Source of the DNA: Pseudomonadales bacterium | GTDB taxonomy: Bacteria > Pseudomonadota > Gammaproteobacteria > Pseudomonadales > Azotimanducaceae | Direction of reading: 5' to 3' | Length of the DNA: 64,000 nt | Assembly: GCA_016779325.1 (NCBI GenBank) | Contig: JADHNU010000001.1 | Location: 62,001-126,000 of the forward strand | Made by a program: the position numbers and the translations under genes | Notes under the pieces: generated by a model | What the model saw: only the letters and a program-made list of their open reading frames with translations | What the model was told of the DNA's origin: nothing | Databases searched by the model: none | Part shown: positions 1,679-32,073 of the stretch, one piece after another | How positions within the stretch are numbered: position 1 is the first letter of the stretch | How the letters are laid out: every line of letters starts with the position of its first letter

Positions 1679-4071
1679 GAGCCCATGCGATAGCGCAGCA
1701 TGACCACGAGTTGGTCTTGGTCTGGCTCGGCGATATTGCGACGGAGAAGCTCATCGAAGCCCCGGCCCGCAGGGTTATCCAAGGAGCCCCCGCGGCTGTA
1801 GACCACGAACAGATCCGATAAGGGGGCGATTTCCCAACGGTAGCGAAGTTGCATGATCGCGTTAGAGATGGAGAAGTCTTGCTCCCCTGGGGCCGTCGGC
1901 TGCGGCGCGGCCCGAAGATGACCACTCGGGGCGATCTCGTAAAAGTCGGACTCCTCGGCCTTCAGGCCGATCCACTGCATGGAGGCGCGAAGCTGCTGCC
2001 GGGCCGAGAAGTAATACTCCACGGTCATGCGCGGGGAGATTTGCTCCGCATTAAAACTGGTCATGCGGCGGTCTTCATCGTGCAAAATCCAGTCGTTGCG
2101 CCGCCCGACTTCCAAGCGCATGCGCGCGTTGAAGCGATCGCCGGGACGCCACACCATGAAGACCCCACCCCGGTAGGACCAATCCTGGAGCGTCTCCTGC
2201 TCAAAACCACCGAAAACCCCCCCGACCAGGGGCAGGCTCTCGTTGGTACCCACGAAAAACTCTCCCGTGGTACGCCCCTGGGCCTTAAAAGCCCCGTTGC
2301 CAAAGCTGTTACGATCATCCCAGCGCGCCGGGCGATAGCCGAGCTCAACGCGGGCCCGGGAGAGGTTGAGCAACGTCCACTCACGCTCCGCAATCAGCCC
2401 GGAGCTGATCTGCTGGCCCTGCCAGTTCACGCCATAGAAGCCCCGGAGGGTCGTGGTGCGATCCCGAACGTGGCTTAAATCAGAGCGCGTTTCTTCATAA
2501 CGATAGCGCAGCTGCGCCTGATCGTTCCGACGCAAAAAGCCAAAATCGTTGATATCGATGTGCCGATCCAGAAGATCCAGGGCGACGTTATGCACCCGTC
2601 CTTTCTTCGGGGTGTAGACCAAATCCGTAGCCAAGCCAACCCCGAAGCGGTCGCCCGCCTGCGAACCAATCAGCTGGCCATCGAACTTCCAGACGCCGCC
2701 TCGAGAGAGCAGGTGACCATCGATGGTGCCCGCAAGGCCGTCCTCGCCCGGTTTCCCGACCCCCGTCAGCATGGCGCCTAGGCCCTTATAGCGCCCCTCC
2801 GCCGCAGACTCCCAAAGGCCCCGGAGCGCGCCGAAGCGTCGCCCCTTCACCTGGAAGTCGAGCAACTCTCCCAGGGCGTCATTGCCGCTGACTTCCGTGT
2901 CCTGCTCCAAGGCTGCCAGCGCACCGAAGCGGAAGGCGCCCTGCTGCCCCGTCACCTTGGCCGCCCCCGCCAAATCGCTGAGGCGATTGCGGTCCGTTTC
3001 TAAGAACCCCTCCACGCGATCATCCGTTGGCAGCGGCGGCGGTGCCCCAATGCGGCGGGTGTTGAGCAGCGTCATCTGGGAGCCGTTACGATAATTACCC
3101 GTGCTTCGGGGCGAGGTATTGAAGACCTCCTGGCCCTCGAGAAAAAAGGGACGACGCTCGCTGAAAAACACCTCAAAGGCCGAGAGGTTCACCACCAAAT
3201 CGTCCTGCTGCACCGTACCGAAATCGGGATTGAGGGTGCCCGACACCTGCAGATTGGAGCTCGGCCGCCAATAGATATCCGAGCCGATTTTGCTTTCCAG
3301 GTCCCCTTCCACCGCATCGTAGGTGGCCGCCGAAAAGGGATAGAGCGTGAGCTGGGTGGAGGGCTCAACGCCGGCAATTTTGACGGGCCGAAGCGCCGAC
3401 ATGAACTTAGGGGTCGTACTCGGTAGGGCAGGGATGCCCCAACGCTGATTCAGATAGGCCACCTGGCGGGAGGCATAGAAGGCAATGGTGCGTTCATCGC
3501 CACTTTGTGGCATGGCCATCATGGACCAAGGTAGGAATAGCTCAGCGGTCCAACCGTCCTCGGTGACCGCGCTAAAGCCATTCCAGGGGCCGTCCCACTG
3601 ATTACTGAATTGGCGTTCCGGCAACACCGTGCCGTCCGCTAGAGAATCGCCAAGGGCCACGGAAAACCAGTAACCAAAAAGCCCCGTACCGGTGGGATCG
3701 ATGGTGATGGAGAAGGAGTCTCGAGCGATGCGCTGATCCCGCGGAGACAGGCGCGCAACCAAGGTGTCCGGGTCCTGTTTCGCTTCGAAACCCACATACA
3801 AACCCCGGTCTGTATAGAACATGCGAATCGAGGATTGGAGGGGCGGCATGGCGAGGGTGTCGGGCTCAATAACGGAAAACTCATCAACCGCAGGGGCTGA
3901 GGCCCAAACGGCCTCGTCCAAACGCCCATCAAGGCGAAAGGCAGCCGGCAGCGATGCTACCCGAGGGGGACGCACAAGCGCCGTGTCGCCCGGCACCGCC
4001 TGCGAAATGGAAGCCAATAAAAACAGCAACATGCCGCCCAAGCGACGGCACGCGTTAAAGCGCCGATTCAA
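1675..4071 (-). CDS. DUF5916 / CBM9-like outer-membrane protein
   Basis: A 798-residue protein with a signal peptide (basic start, hydrophobic core about residues 13-25). An N-terminal CBM9-like beta-sandwich (about 35-215; begins near FRLDGRLDEAVW) is followed by a long beta-rich C-terminal domain. The block NPDFGTVQQDDLVVN...RRPFFLEGQEVF is diagnostic of DUF5916, a family predicted to form outer-membrane beta-barrels, and the C terminus has many alternating aromatic strands (for example QLVVMLRYRMGS). The start is TTG, chosen because AGGA lies seven bases upstream and the codons before ATG at 4032 supply the positive n-region. Function of the family is unknown; the CBM9-like fold hints at polysaccharide binding or surface attachment. 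Convergent with, and overlapping, the PPTase gene by four bases. Confidence 0.85.
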   Translation of the reverse strand: MNRRFNACRRLGGMLLFLLASISQAVPGDTALVRPPRVASLPAAFRLDGRLDEAVWASAPAVDEFSVIEPDTLAMPPLQSSIRMFYTDRGLYVGFEAKQDPDTLVARLSPRDQRIARDSFSITIDPTGTGLFGYWFSVALGDSLADGTVLPERQFSNQWDGPWNGFSAVTEDGWTAELFLPWSMMAMPQSGDERTIAFYASRQVAYLNQRWGIPALPSTTPKFMSALRPVKIAGVEPSTQLTLYPFSAATYDAVEGDLESKIGSDIYWRPSSNLQVSGTLNPDFGTVQQDDLVVNLSAFEVFFSERRPFFLEGQEVFNTSPRSTGNYRNGSQMTLLNTRRIGAPPPLPTDDRVEGFLETDRNRLSDLAGAAKVTGQQGAFRFGALAALEQDTEVSGNDALGELLDFQVKGRRFGALRGLWESAAEGRYKGLGAMLTGVGKPGEDGLAGTIDGHLLSRGGVWKFDGQLIGSQAGDRFGVGLATDLVYTPKKGRVHNVALDLLDRHIDINDFGFLRRNDQAQLRYRYEETRSDLSHVRDRTTTLRGFYGVNWQGQQISSGLIAEREWTLLNLSRARVELGYRPARWDDRNSFGNGAFKAQGRTTGEFFVGTNESLPLVGGVFGGFEQETLQDWSYRGGVFMVWRPGDRFNARMRLEVGRRNDWILHDEDRRMTSFNAEQISPRMTVEYYFSARQQLRASMQWIGLKAEESDFYEIAPSGHLRAAPQPTAPGEQDFSISNAIMQLRYRWEIAPLSDLFVVYSRGGSLDNPAGRGFDELLRRNIAEPDQDQLVVMLRYRMGS

Positions 4072-4185
4072 TGCGATGTCCTAGACCTTTTTTCGACCCG
4101 CTATGCTACCAAACTCAGGCTGGGCATCATCGGTAGAGCGGAATGGAAAATAGGAAAAAACCATGAAGTCCCTCGGCGATTGTCC

Positions 4186-4214
4186 TTGACCTCCCCGCGC
4201 AGGGCCCAGATAAT
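4186..4214 (+). promoter_or_regulatory. sigma-70 promoter of tRNA-Arg
   Basis: A TTGACC -35 (4186-4191) and a GATAAT -10 (4209-4214) are separated by exactly 17 bases, followed by a GC-rich discriminator (GCCGCGC) of the type found at stringently controlled stable-RNA promoters. The tRNA begins about 38 bases after the -10. Confidence 0.75.
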
Positions 4215-4252
4215 GCCGCGCTCTCGCAGGGCAGTTCCTGCGACTTCCCTTG

Positions 4253-4329
4253 GGGCGCGTAGCTCAGTTGGATAGAGCATTCGGCTACGAACCGAAAGGT
4301 CGGGGGTTCGAATCCTCCCGCGCCCGCCA
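4253..4329 (+). tRNA. tRNA-Arg(ACG)
   Basis: A 77-base cloverleaf with encoded CCA. The acceptor stem GGGCGCG pairs with CGCGCCC, the D-arm is GCTCAGTTGGATAGAGC, the anticodon stem is TTCGG/CCGAA with loop CTACGAA, and the T-arm carries TTCGAAT. The anticodon at 4287-4289 is ACG, whose A34 is normally edited to inosine by TadA to read CGU, CGC and CGA. Confidence 0.97.
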
Positions 4330-4331
4330 TC

Positions 4332-5090
4332 TCAGCGTAGTAAGTAGGTATACGCTTCCGGTAGTTCCTCGAGGAATATCTCCGTCAGCGCACCACTCAC
4401 CTGGAGCGCCGGAAAGGGTTTCTTTTCCAAGGTTTCTAAGGTGTCGCAGTGCTTCGGACTAAAGCGCACCTCGGCTAGGCTGCTTTCTTCGGCGAGGTAG
4501 GCCCGTAGCTCAAGGAGGGGGACAGCGCGCGAGGGCAGCACGGCCACCCCAGCACAGCCGCCCTCGGCAAGCCAGGTGACGCTTAGGGCCCGCCCCCTGT
4601 CCTCATAGGCAAAGCGCAATTCCGCAAGGTCTTCGGGCGCCGCTAAGGTCCCAGGCAAAGGGAAGTGCATGAGCGGCGTCGGACCCGCCTCGGAATGGAG
4701 CCCCCGGGCGTCGGCCTGAAGCGCGCGGATCGCCCGCCAGCCCGAGACCTTCAAATCGATCTGCTCGAAGCGCCAATTCAAATTGGCCGCGTCCGCGCCG
4801 TGCACCAGCGTCCCGGCCGTAAACGTGACTGCGGAGGAGAAAGGGTGATAGCGGGCGGCGCGCGCCGTGAGCCAGACGTCGGCTCGACGCACGCGCACAT
4901 CGGAAAAATCCACAAAGAAACCAAGCGTATCGCGACCGACAGACCATTGGCCGAGGGAGACGGTGTCGAAGCCACCTTCCTCCAGCGCATCGCCCACCTT
5001 ATCGGCGATGAGAGCATCGCCCGCCTGGCGGCCCAGCTCCGAATCACCGGCAATAAACAGTAAGGCGCCTAGGCCAAGTTCCTTGAGCAT
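4332..5090 (-). CDS. Unrecognised 252-residue protein between two tRNA genes
   Basis: I do not recognise a family. The frame is long, starts MLKELGLGALLFIAGDSELG, and ends two bases short of the convergent tRNA-Arg. The N terminus has a weakly hydrophobic stretch (about residues 5-14) too short for a confident signal peptide or anchor. The rest looks beta-rich and soluble, with alternating hydrophobic residues and two well separated cysteines (about 178 and 215). It follows the terminator of the tRNA-Ser transcript, so it probably has its own promoter. Length and absence of a better frame on either strand support a real gene; function is unknown. Confidence 0.65.
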   Translation of the reverse strand: MLKELGLGALLFIAGDSELGRQAGDALIADKVGDALEEGGFDTVSLGQWSVGRDTLGFFVDFSDVRVRRADVWLTARAARYHPFSSAVTFTAGTLVHGADAANLNWRFEQIDLKVSGWRAIRALQADARGLHSEAGPTPLMHFPLPGTLAAPEDLAELRFAYEDRGRALSVTWLAEGGCAGVAVLPSRAVPLLELRAYLAEESSLAEVRFSPKHCDTLETLEKKPFPALQVSGALTEIFLEELPEAYTYLLR

Positions 5091-5136
5091 GAACGCCTCG
5101 CTTCGATGCCGCCAGGAACCGAAGAATAACCGCTCT

Positions 5137-5167
5137 AAAAACCAAAAAGGGCGCTAAAGGCACCCTT
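5137..5167 (-). terminator. Intrinsic terminator after tRNA-Ser
   Basis: On the minus strand an 8-bp stem (AAGGGTGC with GCGCCCTT, one G-U pair, five-base loop) is followed by TTTTTGGTTTTT. It lies 6-36 bases past the tRNA-Ser 3' end and closes that transcript. Confidence 0.8.
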
Positions 5168-5172
5168 GAAGC

Positions 5173-5263
5173 TGGCGGAGAGAGAGGGATTCGAACCCTC
5201 GATGGGCTTTTAACCCATACTCCCTTAGCAGGGGAGCGCCTTCGACCACTCGGCCATCTCTCC
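5173..5263 (-). tRNA. tRNA-Ser(GCT)
   Basis: A 91-base class II tRNA with long variable arm and encoded CCA (complement of 5173-5175). The acceptor GGAGAGA pairs with TCTCTCC, the anticodon arm is CTCCC/GGGAG with loop CTGCTAA, giving anticodon GCT (reads AGC and AGU). The T-arm has TTCGAAT. Placement just downstream of csrA matches many gammaproteobacteria. Confidence 0.97.
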
Positions 5264-5304
5264 GGGGCGTCAAGTTTAACATGCTGGCCGCAGAAACCCA
5301 GGGG

Positions 5305-5496
5305 CTAGTCGTCGCTCTCTCCGCGATTTTGGGTCTCGTCCTGGAGCCGCGCCCGGACCTCTTCTCGATGTACAGAAACGTCTTTCGGTGCATCAATGCC
5401 GACTCGAACCTGGTTACCTTTCACGGCCAGAATGGACACCTTGATGCCATCGCCGATGAGCACCGACTCCCCCACCTTTCGCGTCAAAATCAGCAC
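5305..5496 (-). CDS. csrA: Carbon storage regulator CsrA
   Basis: A 63-residue Csr[17 protein letters not shown] at the start, VHREEV at 42-47. L4 and R6 on strand 1 and R44 on strand 5 are the residues that contact GGA motifs in target mRNAs. The protein dimerises and represses or stabilises mRNAs by blocking or covering their leaders. The start is GTG with GGGGAG seven bases before it; this GGA within the ribosome site is the kind of site through which CsrA represses itself, though I see no clear second hairpin. Upstream lysC-alaS-recX-recA and downstream tRNA-Ser complete the standard context. Confidence 0.97.
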
Positions 5497-5613
5497 CCAC
5501 TATCTCCCCAAAGGCCCGCGTGGCCTAGCTCGCCCACAAATTATTGTTTAATGAGGTAATTGCGAAGGCCAAGAATGGCGAAGACCCTTGCCGATTGCCA
5601 GCCTTCCTATTTT

Positions 5614-6837
5614 CTATGCGCGCTCCAGGCCAAAGGTGTCATGGATCGTGCGGACCGCCAGCTCAAGGTATTTTTCATCGAGCACCACGGAGATTTTAAT
5701 CTCGGAGGTGCTGATCATCTGGATATTGATGTTCTCCTTGGCCAGCGCCGCAAACATTTGCGTGGCCACCCCAGCGTGAGACCGCATCCCAACGCCTACC
5801 ACGGAGACCTTCACGATCTTCGAGTCGCCGACCACAGGGCCCGCGCCTAGGGTCTCGGCCGCCTCCTTAACCACCGCCAGCGCCCGATCGTAATCGCCGC
5901 GCTTCACCGTGAAAGTGAAGTCGTTTCGACCCCCATCATGAGCCAGGTTTTGGACGATCATGTCGACCTCTATCCCGCACGCGCTGACCGGGCCCAAAAT
6001 AGACGAGGCCACCCCCGGCACATCGGGCACGGCGCGTACGGAAATCTTCGCCTCATCTCGCGTAAAGGCGATGCCGGACACCATCGGTTGCTCCATGCCT
6101 TCCTGCTCCTCCAAGCTGATCAAGGTGCCCGGCCCGTCCTCAAAGCTGGAGAGCACGCGAACCGGCACGCCATATTTCCCCGCAAATTCCACGGATCGAG
6201 GGTGTAGCACTTTTGAGCCCAAGCTGGCCATTTCAAGCATCTCCTCGAAGGTCACCCGTTCGAGGCGTCGCGCCGTGGCCACCACCCGCGGGTCGGTGGT
6301 GTAGACCCCGTCCACGTCCGTATAAATTTGACACTCATCGGCCTCCAGCGCCGCAGCCAGGGCCACCGCCGTGGTATCCGATCCACCGCGGCCGAGGGTG
6401 GTAATTGCGCCGTCTTCGGCAACGCCCTGGAAACCCGCTATAACCGGCACCACCCCTGCCTCGAAAGCTCGAAAGAGTGATGCCGTTTCGATGTGTTCAA
6501 TGCGTGCCCGGGTGTGAGCGGCATCGGTGCGAATGGGCAGCTGATCGGCAAGGAAGGATTGGGCGGGCACCCCGCGACGAATCAGGGCCATGGCCGTTAG
6601 GGCCGCGCTGGCCTGCTCCCCGGAGGCCAGGAGCACGTCCATTTCCCGGGGGACTGCTTGCCCCCCAAGGTCAAAGCCGAGCCCCTGGAGCCGGTTCGTT
6701 TCGCCACTCATGGCAGACACAACCACCGCCACGTGGTGTCCCGCCCCGCGATGCTCGGCCACCCGGGCCGCCACCGCTTCGATGCGCTCAAGGGAACCAA
6801 CGCTCGTCCCGCCATACTTATGAACGTAAAGCGCCAT
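5614..6837 (-). CDS. lysC: Aspartate kinase
   Basis: A 407-residue monofunctional aspartokinase, catalysing ATP-dependent phosphorylation of aspartate, the first step to lysine, methionine, threonine and diaminopimelate. The N-terminal KYGGTS (7-12) is the kinase signature. Two C-terminal ACT domains (about 264-335 and 340-405) are where lysine and threonine feedback inhibitors bind in this family. TLGRGGSDTTAVALA in the middle is the conserved nucleotide/aspartate segment. It starts two bases after the alaS stop and probably shares its transcript. It supplies the dapD-dapE branch found elsewhere in the window. Confidence 0.96.
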   Translation of the reverse strand: MALYVHKYGGTSVGSLERIEAVAARVAEHRGAGHHVAVVVSAMSGETNRLQGLGFDLGGQAVPREMDVLLASGEQASAALTAMALIRRGVPAQSFLADQLPIRTDAAHTRARIEHIETASLFRAFEAGVVPVIAGFQGVAEDGAITTLGRGGSDTTAVALAAALEADECQIYTDVDGVYTTDPRVVATARRLERVTFEEMLEMASLGSKVLHPRSVEFAGKYGVPVRVLSSFEDGPGTLISLEEQEGMEQPMVSGIAFTRDEAKISVRAVPDVPGVASSILGPVSACGIEVDMIVQNLAHDGGRNDFTFTVKRGDYDRALAVVKEAAETLGAGPVVGDSKIVKVSVVGVGMRSHAGVATQMFAALAKENINIQMISTSEIKISVVLDEKYLELAVRTIHDTFGLERA

Positions 6838-18811: not shown

Positions 18812-21302
<2,491 letters not shown>

Positions 21303-27400: not shown

Positions 27401-27911
27401 GACCGGTTCGCGTGATTTCAAAAAACACCCGATCCCCAAAGGCGCCTTGCCACGGGGCCAGGGCTAGGTCAAAGGCCTCGCTGCCTTCCTCATAGCTTCG
27501 GCCTAGGGGTGAGTGACGCCCCAGTAGCAACAGCAGCCCTCGGCTTTGTGCTTGGAGGGCCTCAGCGGACACCGCCACGGCGGAGGCGCGCTCCGGTGCA
27601 AGGTAGGCGTCGGAAATCAGACGCGTCAGGTTGCCGTAGCCCTCCCGGTTTTCCACAAAAACCGTCACCAGCGACAGCTCGCCTTGGGCATCCCGAAGCG
27701 CTAGATCACAACCGATCAAGGGCTTAAGGCCCGCGGAGCGGGCCGCGTTGTAAAACTTCAGCAAAGCGAAGAGGTTGTTGTGGTCCGTTAGCCCTACGGC
27801 GGGCATGCCCAGCGCTTCGCAGCGGGCCACCAGAGGCTTCACCCGCACCAGACCATCAATGAGGCTGTACTCAGAGTGGACTCGAAGATGGATGAAAGGA
27901 GGCGAGGTCAC
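24432..27911 (-). CDS. dnaE: DNA polymerase III alpha subunit
   Basis: A 1159-residue replicative polymerase subunit. PHP domain at the N terminus ([27 protein letters not shown]), polymerase palm with the catalytic aspartates in PDFDVDF (near residue 398), [23 protein letters not shown], then helix-hairpin-helix and OB domains (about 940-1060). The GTG start at 27911 overlaps the rnhB stop (GTGA). Normal length for the gammaproteobacterial type. Confidence 0.98.
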
Positions 27912-28570
27912 GACGAACGGGGCTCCTTTTCCTGGGGGGAAGCCAGCAAAAACCGGCGCACGGGGGCGAAACTCCGGCGATGCGCCGGGGTCGGGCCCAG
28001 GGCCGCGAGGGCCGCTAAATGCTCCGGTACAGGATAGCCGGAATGGCGCTCAAAACCATAACCGGGATAGCGTTCCCCGAGGCGTCGAAGGGTCTCGTCC
28101 CGGGCCTCCTTTGCCAAGATCGACGCCGCTGCGATAGACGCCAAGCGGCCATCACCCTTGGGCACGGTGATCAGCGGACAGGGCGCCTCGCGCGGCGCCT
28201 GGGTCCCATCGACCAGGGCCAGGCCTGGCGCCAGGGTGAGACTTCGCAGGGCCCGAGCCATGGCCAGCAGGCTGGCCTGGAGAATATTCAGCTCATCAAT
28301 TTCCCAGGCCTCAGCGCTGCCAAGGGCCCAGGCCAGGGCGCAGCTGCGGACTTCCTCCGCAAGCACCGCACGACGCGCTGGAGAGAGGGTTTTTGAATCC
28401 CTGACGGCCGGCGGCGCCTGGCGAGGATCGAAGATGACCGCCGCCGCAACAACCGGGCCAGCCAAAGGTCCCCGGCCGACCTCATCAACGCCGGCAACGG
28501 GGATTGATGGCGGCGGACCGAACTCCGGAAGCCAGTGCGGTAAGGGGGGACGCGGGCGCCGCGGGGGCAC
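27908..28570 (-). CDS. rnhB: Ribonuclease HII
   Basis: An RNase HII of about 220 residues, removing ribonucleotides from DNA and RNA primers. [21 protein letters not shown] carries the first acidic pair, LVDGTQAP and [14 protein letters not shown] the later ones. The start is unclear: GTG at 28570, directly after the fabZ stop, gives the usual length, while ATG at 28612 lies inside fabZ and adds 14 residues. The fabZ-rnhB junction is where lpxA and lpxB are found in relatives. Confidence 0.94.
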
Positions 28571-28571
28571 C

Positions 28572-29021
28572 CTAGGTGAGCGCTCGCTGTGCGCACATGA
28601 GCTCAGTTTCACAGACCACTTGGTCGTCGACCAAGGCTCGACAGGCGAACTTCATGAGGCGTCGCTTATCAACAAGGAATCGCGCTTCGAGAATCAGCTG
28701 ATCCCCCGGGGTCACGGGGCGCTTAAAACGGCACTTATCCGTGCCCGCCAAATACACCACGGCATCCGCCTCGGGATGCTGGCTATGGGTAAGAAAGGCC
28801 AAGATGCCTGCGGCTTGCGCGAGGGCCTCGACCATCAGCACCCCAGGCATGACCGGATGGCCAGGAAAATGGCCTTGGAAGAACGGCTCGTTGATGGTGA
28901 CGTTTTTCAGCGCCCGAATCGATTCCCCAAGGCTGACATCGAGCACCCGATCGACGAGCAGAAAGGGGTAGCGATGGGGAAGGCGTTCAAGAATGGTTTC
29001 GATGGAAAGGGGTAAATCCAT
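28572..29021 (-). CDS. fabZ: 3-hydroxyacyl-ACP dehydratase FabZ
   Basis: A 149-residue hot-dog dehydratase of type II fatty acid synthesis. Catalytic H51 lies in [13 protein letters not shown] and E65 in [23 protein letters not shown] near the start is characteristic. It sits directly between skp and rnhB; in most gammaproteobacteria it is flanked by lpxD and lpxA, with which it competes for hydroxyacyl-ACP. That flanking pair is absent here. Confidence 0.97.
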
Positions 29022-29084
29022 TGCGAGAGTCCTCTTATTCCCGGTGGCGCCGAAGTCGCCGGCGCCACCCTTCGCGCCCTCGCC

Positions 29085-29591
29085 TTAGCTTTGCTTGTCG
29101 AGTACTTCCGTGACCTTGCGGGTAATGTCGTGCTTCGGGTTGACGTAGATAACCGTGTTCCGCGGCAGCACCAGATCGTAGGCCTCGAGCTTCACGAGGT
29201 CATCAAGCGCCGCTTGCACGCCGGGCCCCATCTTTTGGAATAGCTCGTTACGGCGACGATTCACGGCCTTCTGGTAGCTTTCCGTACGGTATTGAAGGTC
29301 CGAGGTAAGGCGCTCGTAATCTTCGGAGAGGCGCGTGCGCTCTTCCTCGCCCATCACTTCGCCATCGCGTTGAACCTTTTCCTCGATTTCCGCGCGCTGA
29401 GCCGTCAGCTCTCGAATACGCTCAAGGTCCGCCTCGAGGGATTCCTGGACCTTTTCAAGGAAGGCCTGGGCTTCCTGCGTCTGGCCGATGGCCGCCTGCA
29501 CATCGACTACGGCAATCTTCAGCTCGGCCCCAGCTAGGGGGGCGAGACCCAAGGCTCCAAGGCCCAAGACAAACGCCAGCACTCGCTTCAC
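29085..29591 (-). CDS. skp: Periplasmic chaperone Skp (OmpH)
   Basis: A 168-residue OmpH-family protein with signal peptide (1-22, ends LAGA), a beta strand (LKIAVVDVQAAI), and a long charged coiled coil (about 45-135) that forms the tentacles of the Skp trimer. It holds unfolded outer-membrane proteins for BamA, encoded just upstream. GTG start. A 97-base gap to bamA shows no clear terminator. Confidence 0.93.
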   Translation of the reverse strand: MKRVLAFVLGLGALGLAPLAGAELKIAVVDVQAAIGQTQEAQAFLEKVQESLEADLERIRELTAQRAEIEEKVQRDGEVMGEEERTRLSEDYERLTSDLQYRTESYQKAVNRRRNELFQKMGPGVQAALDDLVKLEAYDLVLPRNTVIYVNPKHDITRKVTEVLDKQS

Positions 29592-29688: not shown

Positions 29689-32073
29689 TCAAAAAGTTCG
29701 TCCCAACTCAAACTGGAAAAACTGCGTCTGGTCGTCCGCGTCTTCGTTAAACACCTGGGCAACGCCGAAGGAGAGGGGCCCGAAGCCGCTTAGCCAGGTC
29801 ACCCCTAGGCCCAGGGAATAGCGCATATTGTCCAAGGAGGGCCCGTAGCACCGAGTGCTGGTCCGAGGGCACTGAGTATTGAATACGTTACCGAAGTCAA
29901 AAAAGGCGACAGGCCGAAACTGTCGGTCGTCTTCAACAAAGGGGACCGGTAGGATGACCTCAAGGCCACCGGTGATGAGCACGTTCCCGCCAAAGGGCTG
30001 GGGACGACGCCCCTGAAAGGGCGAATCGGGGGGCTCGGTGGCCCGGGGGCCAAGGGAGTTGAGCTCGAAACCCCGCACGGAACCAAAACCGCCTGCAAAG
30101 AAATGCTCATAAAACGGTAGGGTGGAGTTCCCTCCGAAGGCATCCCCATAGCCAAGCTTCGTGTGCGCCCGCAACGTAAATAGCGGCCCCAGGGGAATGA
30201 AGCGCTGGCCTTCGTAGCGCACCTTGAAGAAGAGGAGGTCGCTGCCAGGTAGGGCCACCTCTGCGGAGAAGTTCTGCGATGACCCGCGCGTCGGGAAAAG
30301 ACCCCGGTTTAGCTGAGAATTAATCCAAGTCAGATTCGCCGTAAAGTTGAGAAACTGACTGCCTTGGTCCGCAATGAAGCTCGAGATTTCCTGCGCGGGG
30401 AAGAGGCCGGCGGTGATGTCCGTATAATCGACGTTGACGCCGAAATTCAGGCGCTCCACTTCGCTAATGGGATAGCCAAAGTTCACCCCGGCGCCGTAGG
30501 CGTTAGTGAGAAACCGGGCAATGTTTTGCTGCCCAAAGTTCGTTTCCCGATAGAACAGATTAAAGCCCCGGCTGATGCCGTCTACGGTGAAATAGGGGTC
30601 AAAGAAATTGAAATTCACCGACTGCTGGAACTGGGACCAGTTAATGCCCACGCTGGTGGAGTTCCCGGTGCCAAAGACGTTATTTTCCTGATACTGGGCC
30701 CCGAGAATGAGCCCCGCCTGCTGAGCGTAGCCGAGGGTGCCCGAGATGCTTCCGGAGGGCTGCTCCTCGACGCTGAACTCTACGTCGATTTGGTTCTCCG
30801 TTCCGGGCACGGCTGGGGTTTCGACGTTCACGTTTTTAAAGTAGCCAAGGCGCTCGAGACGCACCTTAGACAGATCAATCTGCGAGGTCGATGCCCAGCC
30901 CCCTTCTTGCTGGCGCATTTCTCGGCGCAGCACGTTGTCCCGAGTGAGGGTGTTGCCGCGGAAGTTCACGCTGCGCACGTAGGCGCGCTGCCCCGCATCG
31001 ACAAAAAAGCGCAGCCGTACCGTACCCGCCTCTTCATCGACCTCAGGTACGCCATTGGCTTCCGCGAAGGTATAGCCCGCGTTACCCAGGGCGCTCGTAA
31101 GCCGTTCCTCCGAGGCGGTCACCAGCGCTTGAGAGAAGGTTTGCCCTTCAAACACCAGCAGCAGCGACTCGAGGGCGTCCGCGGGGACGTCATTGAGCTC
31201 GCCGGCGAGCTCGACATCGTCGATGGAGTACTTATCCCCCTCATCGACGTTGATCGTGATGTAGACCTCACTCTTGTCGGGGTTGACCGTCACCTGGGTG
31301 GAGTCGATACGGAAATTCACATACCCCGTATCTTTATAGTAGGCCTCGAGGCGCTCGAGATCGCCGGAAAGCTTTTCCCGGGAGTAGCGGTCATCGTTCT
31401 TATAGAACGAGAGCAAGTTCGGGAGCTTCATCTCAAAGGACTCGAACAGCTCTCGGTCCGTGTAAACCGTATTGCCCACAATGTTCAGGTGGCGCACCTT
31501 GGCAACGGACCCTTCCTCAATGGTGATTTTGACGGCGACGCGGTTCCGGGGTAGATCCTCAACTTCCGCCTCAATGGTGGCGCCATAGCGCCCCTGGGAT
31601 ACGTACTGGCGGGTGAGCTCGAGCTCAACCCGCTCGAGCGTCGCCCGTTGGAAGATTTCCCCTTCCGCCAAGCCGGAACCCGCCAAGCCTTCTAGGAGCG
31701 CATCGCTTTCAATGGACTCGTTGCCCTCCAGGGTGATGGAGTCGATGGCCGGCCGCTCAAGGAGCGTCAGCACCAACACATTGCCGTCGCGCCCCACGCC
31801 AATGTCGCTGAAGTAGCCCGAAGAGAAAAGGGAACGGAGCGTTTCCCGAGCAAGATACTCGTCATAGCGATCCCCCACATTCACCGGCAGAAGCCCAAAA
31901 ACCGTACCCGGCGAAACCCGCTGGAGCCCCTGAACCCGGATGTCCCCAATGGTGAATTGCGCAGCCGACGGCGCAGCCTCTTCGGCCAAGGAGAAGCCGC
32001 CGCCAAAGGCCAGGGAAAGGCACAGCGCAAGGCGCCACAAGGCAGATCGGGGAGATTTCACTAGGCGTCTCAA
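29689..32073 (-). CDS. bamA: Outer membrane protein assembly factor BamA
   Basis: A 794-residue BamA with signal peptide, five POTRA domains (about 35-435) and a C-terminal 16-strand barrel ending in the aromatic FELGRTF. The conserved VRGF of the barrel is present (FGSVRGFELNSLGP). It inserts beta-barrel proteins into the outer membrane. The TTG at 32073 overlaps the rseP stop; GTG at 32061 is an equally possible start. Order rseP-bamA-skp is standard. Confidence 0.97.
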   Translation of the reverse strand: MRRLVKSPRSALWRLALCLSLAFGGGFSLAEEAAPSAAQFTIGDIRVQGLQRVSPGTVFGLLPVNVGDRYDEYLARETLRSLFSSGYFSDIGVGRDGNVLVLTLLERPAIDSITLEGNESIESDALLEGLAGSGLAEGEIFQRATLERVELELTRQYVSQGRYGATIEAEVEDLPRNRVAVKITIEEGSVAKVRHLNIVGNTVYTDRELFESFEMKLPNLLSFYKNDDRYSREKLSGDLERLEAYYKDTGYVNFRIDSTQVTVNPDKSEVYITINVDEGDKYSIDDVELAGELNDVPADALESLLLVFEGQTFSQALVTASEERLTSALGNAGYTFAEANGVPEVDEEAGTVRLRFFVDAGQRAYVRSVNFRGNTLTRDNVLRREMRQQEGGWASTSQIDLSKVRLERLGYFKNVNVETPAVPGTENQIDVEFSVEEQPSGSISGTLGYAQQAGLILGAQYQENNVFGTGNSTSVGINWSQFQQSVNFNFFDPYFTVDGISRGFNLFYRETNFGQQNIARFLTNAYGAGVNFGYPISEVERLNFGVNVDYTDITAGLFPAQEISSFIADQGSQFLNFTANLTWINSQLNRGLFPTRGSSQNFSAEVALPGSDLLFFKVRYEGQRFIPLGPLFTLRAHTKLGYGDAFGGNSTLPFYEHFFAGGFGSVRGFELNSLGPRATEPPDSPFQGRRPQPFGGNVLITGGLEVILPVPFVEDDRQFRPVAFFDFGNVFNTQCPRTSTRCYGPSLDNMRYSLGLGVTWLSGFGPLSFGVAQVFNEDADDQTQFFQFELGRTF

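Follow-up and report, generated by a model that had tools for sequence, protein, structure and literature searches.

Probable loss of the lipid A pathway in a gammaproteobacterial genus with a sphingolipid gene cluster and its own LptF/LptG pair

Most Gram-negative bacteria cannot do without lipid A, yet a few can, and why this is so is still regarded as an open question (PMC10964400). Sphingomonas makes no lipid A (PMC10964400; PMC11324152, available portion). In Caulobacter crescentus, the available portion of PMC11324152 places SPT, an ACP, an acyl-ACP synthetase, a reductase and a ceramide kinase in one region, CC_1168-CC_1152, and assigns to the same region a CDP-DAG-synthase-like protein, a CofC-like nucleotidyltransferase, a second LptF/LptG and a potential flippase; the cluster reported here resembles that region in both sets of genes. 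Second copies of Caulobacter LptC, LptF and LptG are proposed in that text to 'probably participate' in sphingolipid transport. Loss of lpx genes has also been described in Nitrosomonas europaea, reported with only lpxK, and Nitrosospira multiformis, reported with only lpxA (PMC3087551, accessible part). That part of the report links the loss to genome reduction and makes no mention of sphingolipids. We analysed a 64,000-nucleotide stretch of DNA, here called the window (C55:62001-126000), from an assembly of 2.36 Mb in 75 contigs that is 93.45% complete, and compared it with four further genomes of its genus and with a broader set of relatives.

The fabZ locus and the lipid A pathway of the genus

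Open reading frames and family searches gave the minus-strand order bamA, skp, fabZ, rnhB and a dnaE-like gene in the window. The upstream neighbour bamA (29689-32073; TIGR03303, 818 bits) is followed by the periplasmic chaperone gene skp (29085-29591; PF03938, 70.9 bits, E = 1.6e-19), fabZ (28572-29021; TIGR01750, 202.8 bits, cut-off 155) and rnhB (NF000595, 229 bits); the dnaE-like gene was named from its own sequence and has homologues at the compared loci. The longest rnhB frame (27908-28612, minus) shares 41 bases with fabZ; if GTG 28570 is taken as the start instead (27908-28570), a single base, 28571, lies between the two genes. The positions given in the original prediction, with skp, fabZ and rnhB consecutive and separated by 63 bases and one base, were therefore confirmed by the frames and by PF03938, TIGR01750 and NF000595. 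In the lipid A-bearing relatives G014, G030 and G058 the corresponding stretch reads skp-lpxD-fabZ-lpxA-lpxB-rnhB. The 63-base junction (29022-29084, minus) occupies the position of lpxD in such relatives and carries no lpxD remnant, and lpxA and lpxB sit between fabZ and rnhB in relatives such as G014 and G058. When LpxD, LpxA and LpxB of relatives were used as tblastn queries, neither the window nor the adjoining stretches fetched from the same genome gave any trace of these genes (all E > 0.2). The identical lpx-free order was found in the four other genus genomes, the contig of one (G002) starting inside skp, and the predicted absence of lpxD, lpxA and lpxB from this locus thus extends to all five. 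Retention of fabZ is presumably explained by its need in fatty acid synthesis.

LpxC (PF03331) was detected in none of the five genus genomes, that of the window included; the same search recovered the family from Escherichia coli and from 50 of the 58 genomes examined. Likewise, LpxB (PF02684) and the N-terminal domain of the Kdo transferase WaaA (PF04413), sought in 22 genomes chosen from the 58, were found in none of the five. LpxA was absent from the fabZ locus in all five, and nothing in the window's own genome exceeded the LpxA cut-off of 231, a single match of 51 positions scoring 32.6 bits. LpxD was missing from the fabZ locus in all five and from the stretches fetched from the window's genome. 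These are five separate assemblies, 79 to 95% complete. LptD was found in every one, and lptD of the window's genome is followed by frames that, from their sequences, we take to be surA, pdxA and ksgA. The original prediction had proposed a genome search for the lpx genes, waaA and lptD, and held that a complete lpx set elsewhere would mean simple relocation. No such set turned up in the searches: lpxC, lpxB and waaA were undetected in the five genomes and lpxA was below cut-off in the window's own, with lptD present throughout. As judged from gene content, loss of the lpx genes in this genus fits better than relocation.

The window also contains kdsA (20466-21302, minus), which adjoins eno (19124-20479) and scores 406 bits against TIGR01362, over the cut-off. 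The gene is intact although the genus has no detected WaaA-family Kdo transferase. From kdsA it had been argued that Kdo is still made. The gene is a true Kdo-8-phosphate synthase by family score, and Kdo may therefore be made.

The sphingolipid cluster and its LptF/LptG pair

A sphingolipid-like operon had been noted at 1-1678 of the window. It is real, and is the end of an SPT cluster that begins about 16 kb upstream on the same contig and finishes inside the window. Its first genes, for a dedicated ACP of 102 residues (PF00550) and, 10 bases downstream of this, for SPT, lie at L056 10085-11621. The SPT scores 721 bits to A1, and its best structural matches are 2x8u and 2jg2 (E about 1e-117 to 1e-112), SPT structures that we take to be of Sphingomonas origin. 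Because SPT is nearest to these Sphingomonas-type structures, the sphingolipid link is supported; together with the absence of LpxC, LpxB and WaaA from all five genomes, this favours the suggestion made with the original prediction that lipid A may be reduced or absent, as in Sphingomonas.

The cluster further encodes an MsbA-like ABC protein, LptG, LptF, a GT8-like protein (weak match), a sulfotransferase, a Tam41-like protein, a DAGK-type lipid kinase, a metallophosphatase, a CofC-like nucleotidyltransferase and an acyl-AMP ligase. The ligase is AasR-like (NF006624, 641 bits, cut-off 600), with AcpR as its putative substrate. An extended SDR (141-1073, plus; PF01370) occupies the place expected of CerR and has partners 38.9 to 53.5% identical in other SPT clusters; this CerR-like assignment was made without a CerR model, and the reductase activity is putative. 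The last cluster gene (1070-1678, plus) encodes a probable 4'-phosphopantetheinyl transferase, matched weakly (NF042922, 5e-4; PF01648, 0.0011, under the cut-off), that could load AcpR. The Tam41-like protein matched no Pfam family; its structural model (mean pLDDT 83.8) gave as top match the Tam41 CDP-DAG synthase 6ig2 (E = 9.6e-8, TM about 0.5, rmsd 9.6). This match agrees with the CDP-DAG synthase domain that Caulobacter CC_1161 is said to carry in the available portion of PMC11324152. The labels CpgB-like and CpgC-like, used below, denote resemblance to Caulobacter proteins. Three ELM1-family proteins (PF06258) occur in this one sphingolipid cluster (L034 2639-3703, L034 5573-6709 and L056 11643-12710), with homologues in other clusters; they are possibly head-group glycosyltransferases.

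LptF and LptG lie inside the sphingolipid cluster, with SPT nearby, in the window's genome and in several others. Among the 22 genomes, each of 8 that are LpxC-negative had exactly two matches to the LptF/LptG family, and G014 and G030, where lipid A genes occur together with SPT, had four each. Trees were built from copies labelled 'LPS' or 'SPH' by position beforehand; rows under 300 residues, the duplicates L056, L067 and L108, and L078, L115, L124 and L129 were left out. The last four are SPT loci with alphaproteobacterial titles that showed only a weak LptF match leaning to LPS-type queries. In the LptF tree, a branch with 100/100 support split 37 SPT-cluster copies from 9 LPS-type copies, E. 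coli included. G014 and G030 placed one copy on each side, and the sole LptF of the window's genome fell on the cluster side, beside the copy of G058. The LptG tree gave the same split (SH-aLRT 99, quick method). No LPS-type LptF or LptG was found in the window's genome, its single pair belonging to the sphingolipid-cluster clade. The two trees thus identify the pair kept in the genus as the sphingolipid-cluster pair. The generality of a cluster-borne pair is weakened by the four loci with alphaproteobacterial titles and by the fetched SPT loci of Nitrosomonas and Nitrosospira, in which no LptF or LptG of at least 280 residues was found.

In other clusters a GNAT-like protein is encoded beside the CofC-like gene, and we presume this family to be the ceramide synthase (cerS/bCerS) from cluster position, the name having been given without a curated model. 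Of 59 genomes searched, 34 encode the presumed ceramide synthase. Among the 26 lipid A-less genomes 21 have it, as do 12 of the 13 others with SPT and also G029, and none of the 19 SPT-negative genomes does. Put differently, 33 of 39 SPT-bearing genomes have it, and 33 of the 34 outside the genus. The six misses are the five genus genomes and their sister G058. N-acylation is therefore unexplained in the genus, where either another N-acyltransferase would perform it or the lipid would not be a ceramide. As genus and sister both lack the protein, the change probably predates lipid A loss.

Lipid A and SPT among relatives

Genome contigs were scanned with an SPT alignment, and the best 80 named loci of a larger list were retained. 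From these loci, 50 genomes were searched for LpxC and 19 lacked it, two of the 19 being G016 and G044; in an even draw across the class it was missing from 14 of 376 other genomes. SPT was sought in 80 genomes, where true SPT scored at least 554 bits and everything else at most 317 bits; this empty interval separates SPT from its paralogues. Nine of 30 LpxC-bearing family members and 3 of the 28 LpxC-bearing class members examined (of 362) carried SPT, which thus does not force loss. Absence of LpxC alone was discarded as a marker of loss: of the 14 class-draw negatives, ten keep lpxD and lpxA, two are genomes of 0.3-0.4 Mb, and only in G360 and G467 were lpxD and lpxA not seen at fabZ. The claim of loss consequently relies on both tests in combination.

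We read the fabZ locus in the window's genome and in 51 others. LpxC was missing from 26 genomes whose fetched fabZ surroundings also showed no lpxD, lpxA or lpxB. This set comprises the five genus genomes, G016 and G044, a further 17 taken from the SPT scan and, out of the class draw, G360 and G467; in 23 of them bamA or skp could be seen to precede fabZ and rnhB. The contig of G467 starts 638 bases before fabZ, so that the lpxD side is outside it, and lpxA and lpxB are missing. In G091 and G097, titled Rhodospirillales, the neighbours of fabZ are other genes or were undetected, and absence is less sure because the LpxD, LpxA and LpxB queries came from the window's family. SPT was present in all 26, a figure that overstates the link since 17 were chosen for carrying it. 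Within the class draw, SPT occurred in 2 of 2 genomes with loss versus 3 of 28 with LpxC (Fisher p = 0.023, small sample). Survey genomes with neither LpxC nor SPT kept lpxD and lpxA at fabZ in 10 of 10 cases, and their LpxC gap is therefore probably assembly loss. Eleven SPT-bearing genomes also keep lpxD and lpxA there. Nitrosospira multiformis Nl12 and Nitrosomonas oligotropha Nm75 have no LpxC, an lpx-free fabZ-rnhB locus and SPT.

Some genomes were kept apart from this count. G205 has LpxC and SPT and no lpxD, lpxA or lpxB at fabZ, and in this genome the lpx genes may have relocated. G007 was set aside: LpxB and lpxD/lpxA/lpxB at fabZ are missing, but its LpxC is cut by a contig end; LptD was not found, and LptF/LptG-like genes on one contig resemble neither type well. 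We treated G029 as a partial case and left it out as well. Searches for LpxC, LpxB, WaaA, LptD and SPT found none of them in this genome, the cluster contig ending at the place expected for SPT; an LpxA-like gene lies between fabZ and rnhB (C119, L153, 4982-5650, plus in fabZ orientation). It is a possible half-way stage of lipid A loss, and the nearest case here to a free-living lipid A-less relative without SPT.

Several further observations were made in the survey. In the lipid A-bearing relative G017 (L187, C32) the order at 3515-6709 is lpxD-fabZ-lpxB-rnhB, with lpxA not between. Two full-length LpxC genes occur in several family members (G005, G009, G013, G015 and others). A MAG titled Klebsiella pneumoniae (L108, CAMAXE010000013.1) has the same SPT cluster as G044, which is SPT-bearing, LpxC-negative and a member of the window's taxonomic order; the title looks wrong. 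The FabZ matches of G075 (C1:69273-69698) and G090 (C51:267664-268089), titled Haliea and Halioglobus, each contain one TAG. A Black Sea study, in its available portion, describes few functions as depleted in SPT-bearing MAGs (PMC11334938), which speaks against a link between SPT and loss.

Changes of lipid A state were counted on a tree of BamA, a single gene serving as proxy for the species tree. With 45 rows, and G007 and G205 counted as lost, the state changes 8 times; with the 41 rows bearing both traits, without those two, it changes 6 times, and strongly supported branches force at least 4 changes in both counts. G002 (no BamA in the stretch), G066 and G201 (too short), and G005, G036, G091 and G467 (not entered) are not in the tree. 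Independent pairs numbered 4 (median p = 0.5), too few to decide the link between SPT and loss. The sister of the genus, G058, has LpxC, lpxD-fabZ-lpxA-lpxB and an SPT cluster with LptF/LptG. Both systems were therefore likely present first, with lipid A lost later.

A predicted sphingolipid outer leaflet, its rivals and known systems

Collectively, these data make it quite probable that the genus lost the lipid A pathway and that its outer-leaflet lipid is a phosphorylated, glycosylated sphingolipid exported through the cluster LptF/LptG and LptD. The gene losses, the cluster, the LptF/LptG type and LptD are read directly from the genomes; the biochemical steps, the exported lipid and the compensation of lipid A by sphingolipid are what we infer from them. 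The AasR-like acyl-AMP ligase would charge AcpR, SPT would join acyl-AcpR and serine, and CerR would reduce the product. The CpgB-like lipid kinase and the CpgC-like, Tam41-like nucleotidyltransferase are predicted to make an anionic head group, which the ELM1-type and GT8-like proteins and the sulfotransferase may decorate. The MsbA-like ABC protein would then flip the sphingolipid, and the cluster LptF/LptG would extract it into a retained Lpt bridge ending at LptD. With a second exporter dedicated to sphingolipid in place before the loss, lpxD, lpxA, lpxB, lpxC, waaA and the LPS-type LptF/LptG could go and LptD would stay.

Other explanations were weighed against this one. That lpxD, lpxA and lpxB have merely moved and lipid A is still made is highly improbable. 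G205 indicates that lpx genes may leave the fabZ locus in a genome with LpxC, and the window's own assembly is incomplete, but LpxB, LpxC and WaaA are absent from five separate genus assemblies, and the LpxC search does detect its family elsewhere. Of the alternatives in the original prediction, removed cleanly or moved, removal agrees with these absences and with the lack of any remnant; relocation was rejected for the genus, LpxA being below cut-off in the window's genome as well. Genome reduction, proposed for Nitrosomonas in the accessible part of PMC3087551, might instead have removed lipid A with the sphingolipid cluster incidental. The genus genomes are small (2.2-2.8 Mb, versus 3.1-5.2 Mb for most of the family members among the 58 genomes and 5.1 Mb for the sister G058), and the two class-draw genomes of 0.3-0.4 Mb have neither LpxC nor SPT by the LpxC and SPT searches alone. 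However, the SPT-negative relatives G017, G024 and G027, of 2.1-2.8 Mb, keep LpxC, LpxB and WaaA, some lipid A-less genomes are as large as 4.3-5.1 Mb (G044, G082, G090), and SPT accompanies every genome failing both lipid A tests. Reduction by itself is thus decidedly unlikely, and we judge it weaker than the sphingolipid explanation.

A further possibility concerns the cargo: the Lpt machinery could have been retained to serve some other glycan or lipid of the envelope, such as one containing Kdo, with the sphingolipid surfacing by a different route. An intact kdsA without a WaaA-family enzyme would suit such a cargo, as would the three ELM1-type proteins, the GT8-like protein and the sulfotransferase of the cluster, and Nitrosomonas-type SPT loci show no LptF/LptG in the fetched flanks. 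Against it, LptF and LptG are encoded within the sphingolipid cluster in the window's genome and several others and form a clade of their own, and we regard this cargo as unlikely.

Export of sphingolipid by the cluster LptF/LptG leads to a wider proposal, towards which we lean with less assurance. In Gammaproteobacteria, beta lineages included, lipid A would have disappeared repeatedly, and every free-living lineage that lost it would already have had a sphingolipid pathway, often together with LptF2/LptG2. An lpx-free fabZ-rnhB locus would mark each loss, and sphingolipid moved by the retained LptD would form the outer leaflet; in the genus, the ceramide synthase would have been replaced by a different N-acyltransferase, or the sphingolipid would not be N-acylated. 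Natural losses, with a sister that has both systems, supply a testable rule in which the sphingolipid pathway comes first and lipid A goes later, and the Lpt bridge is predicted to carry sphingolipids. The wider pattern merits an unbiased survey and lipid chemistry. In open-licence PubMed Central we found no paper that connects SPT clusters with recurrent loss of lipid A among Gammaproteobacteria, most subscription papers being outside that scope.

Unlike the genus, in which no lipid A pathway was found, Caulobacter crescentus has lipid A, which is conditionally dispensable (PMC10964400), and it has cerS (PMC11324152, available portion), whereas nothing related to the presumed ceramide synthase family was detected in the genus. 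As in N. europaea and N. multiformis (PMC3087551, accessible part), lpx genes have apparently been lost; N. multiformis Nl12 and N. oligotropha Nm75 differ from the genus in having the presumed ceramide synthase. In gene content the genus also resembles Sphingomonas and other LPS-free sphingolipid bacteria (PMC10964400; PMC11324152, available portion), which are without lipid A and make sphingolipids with the same type of SPT. Sphingomonas is alphaproteobacterial, whereas the genus is gammaproteobacterial and nested among lipid A-bearing relatives. Thus, lipid A loss with sphingolipids is already known from Sphingomonas and lpx loss from Nitrosomonas; this lineage, the recurrence of loss and the missing usual ceramide synthase of the genus are new.
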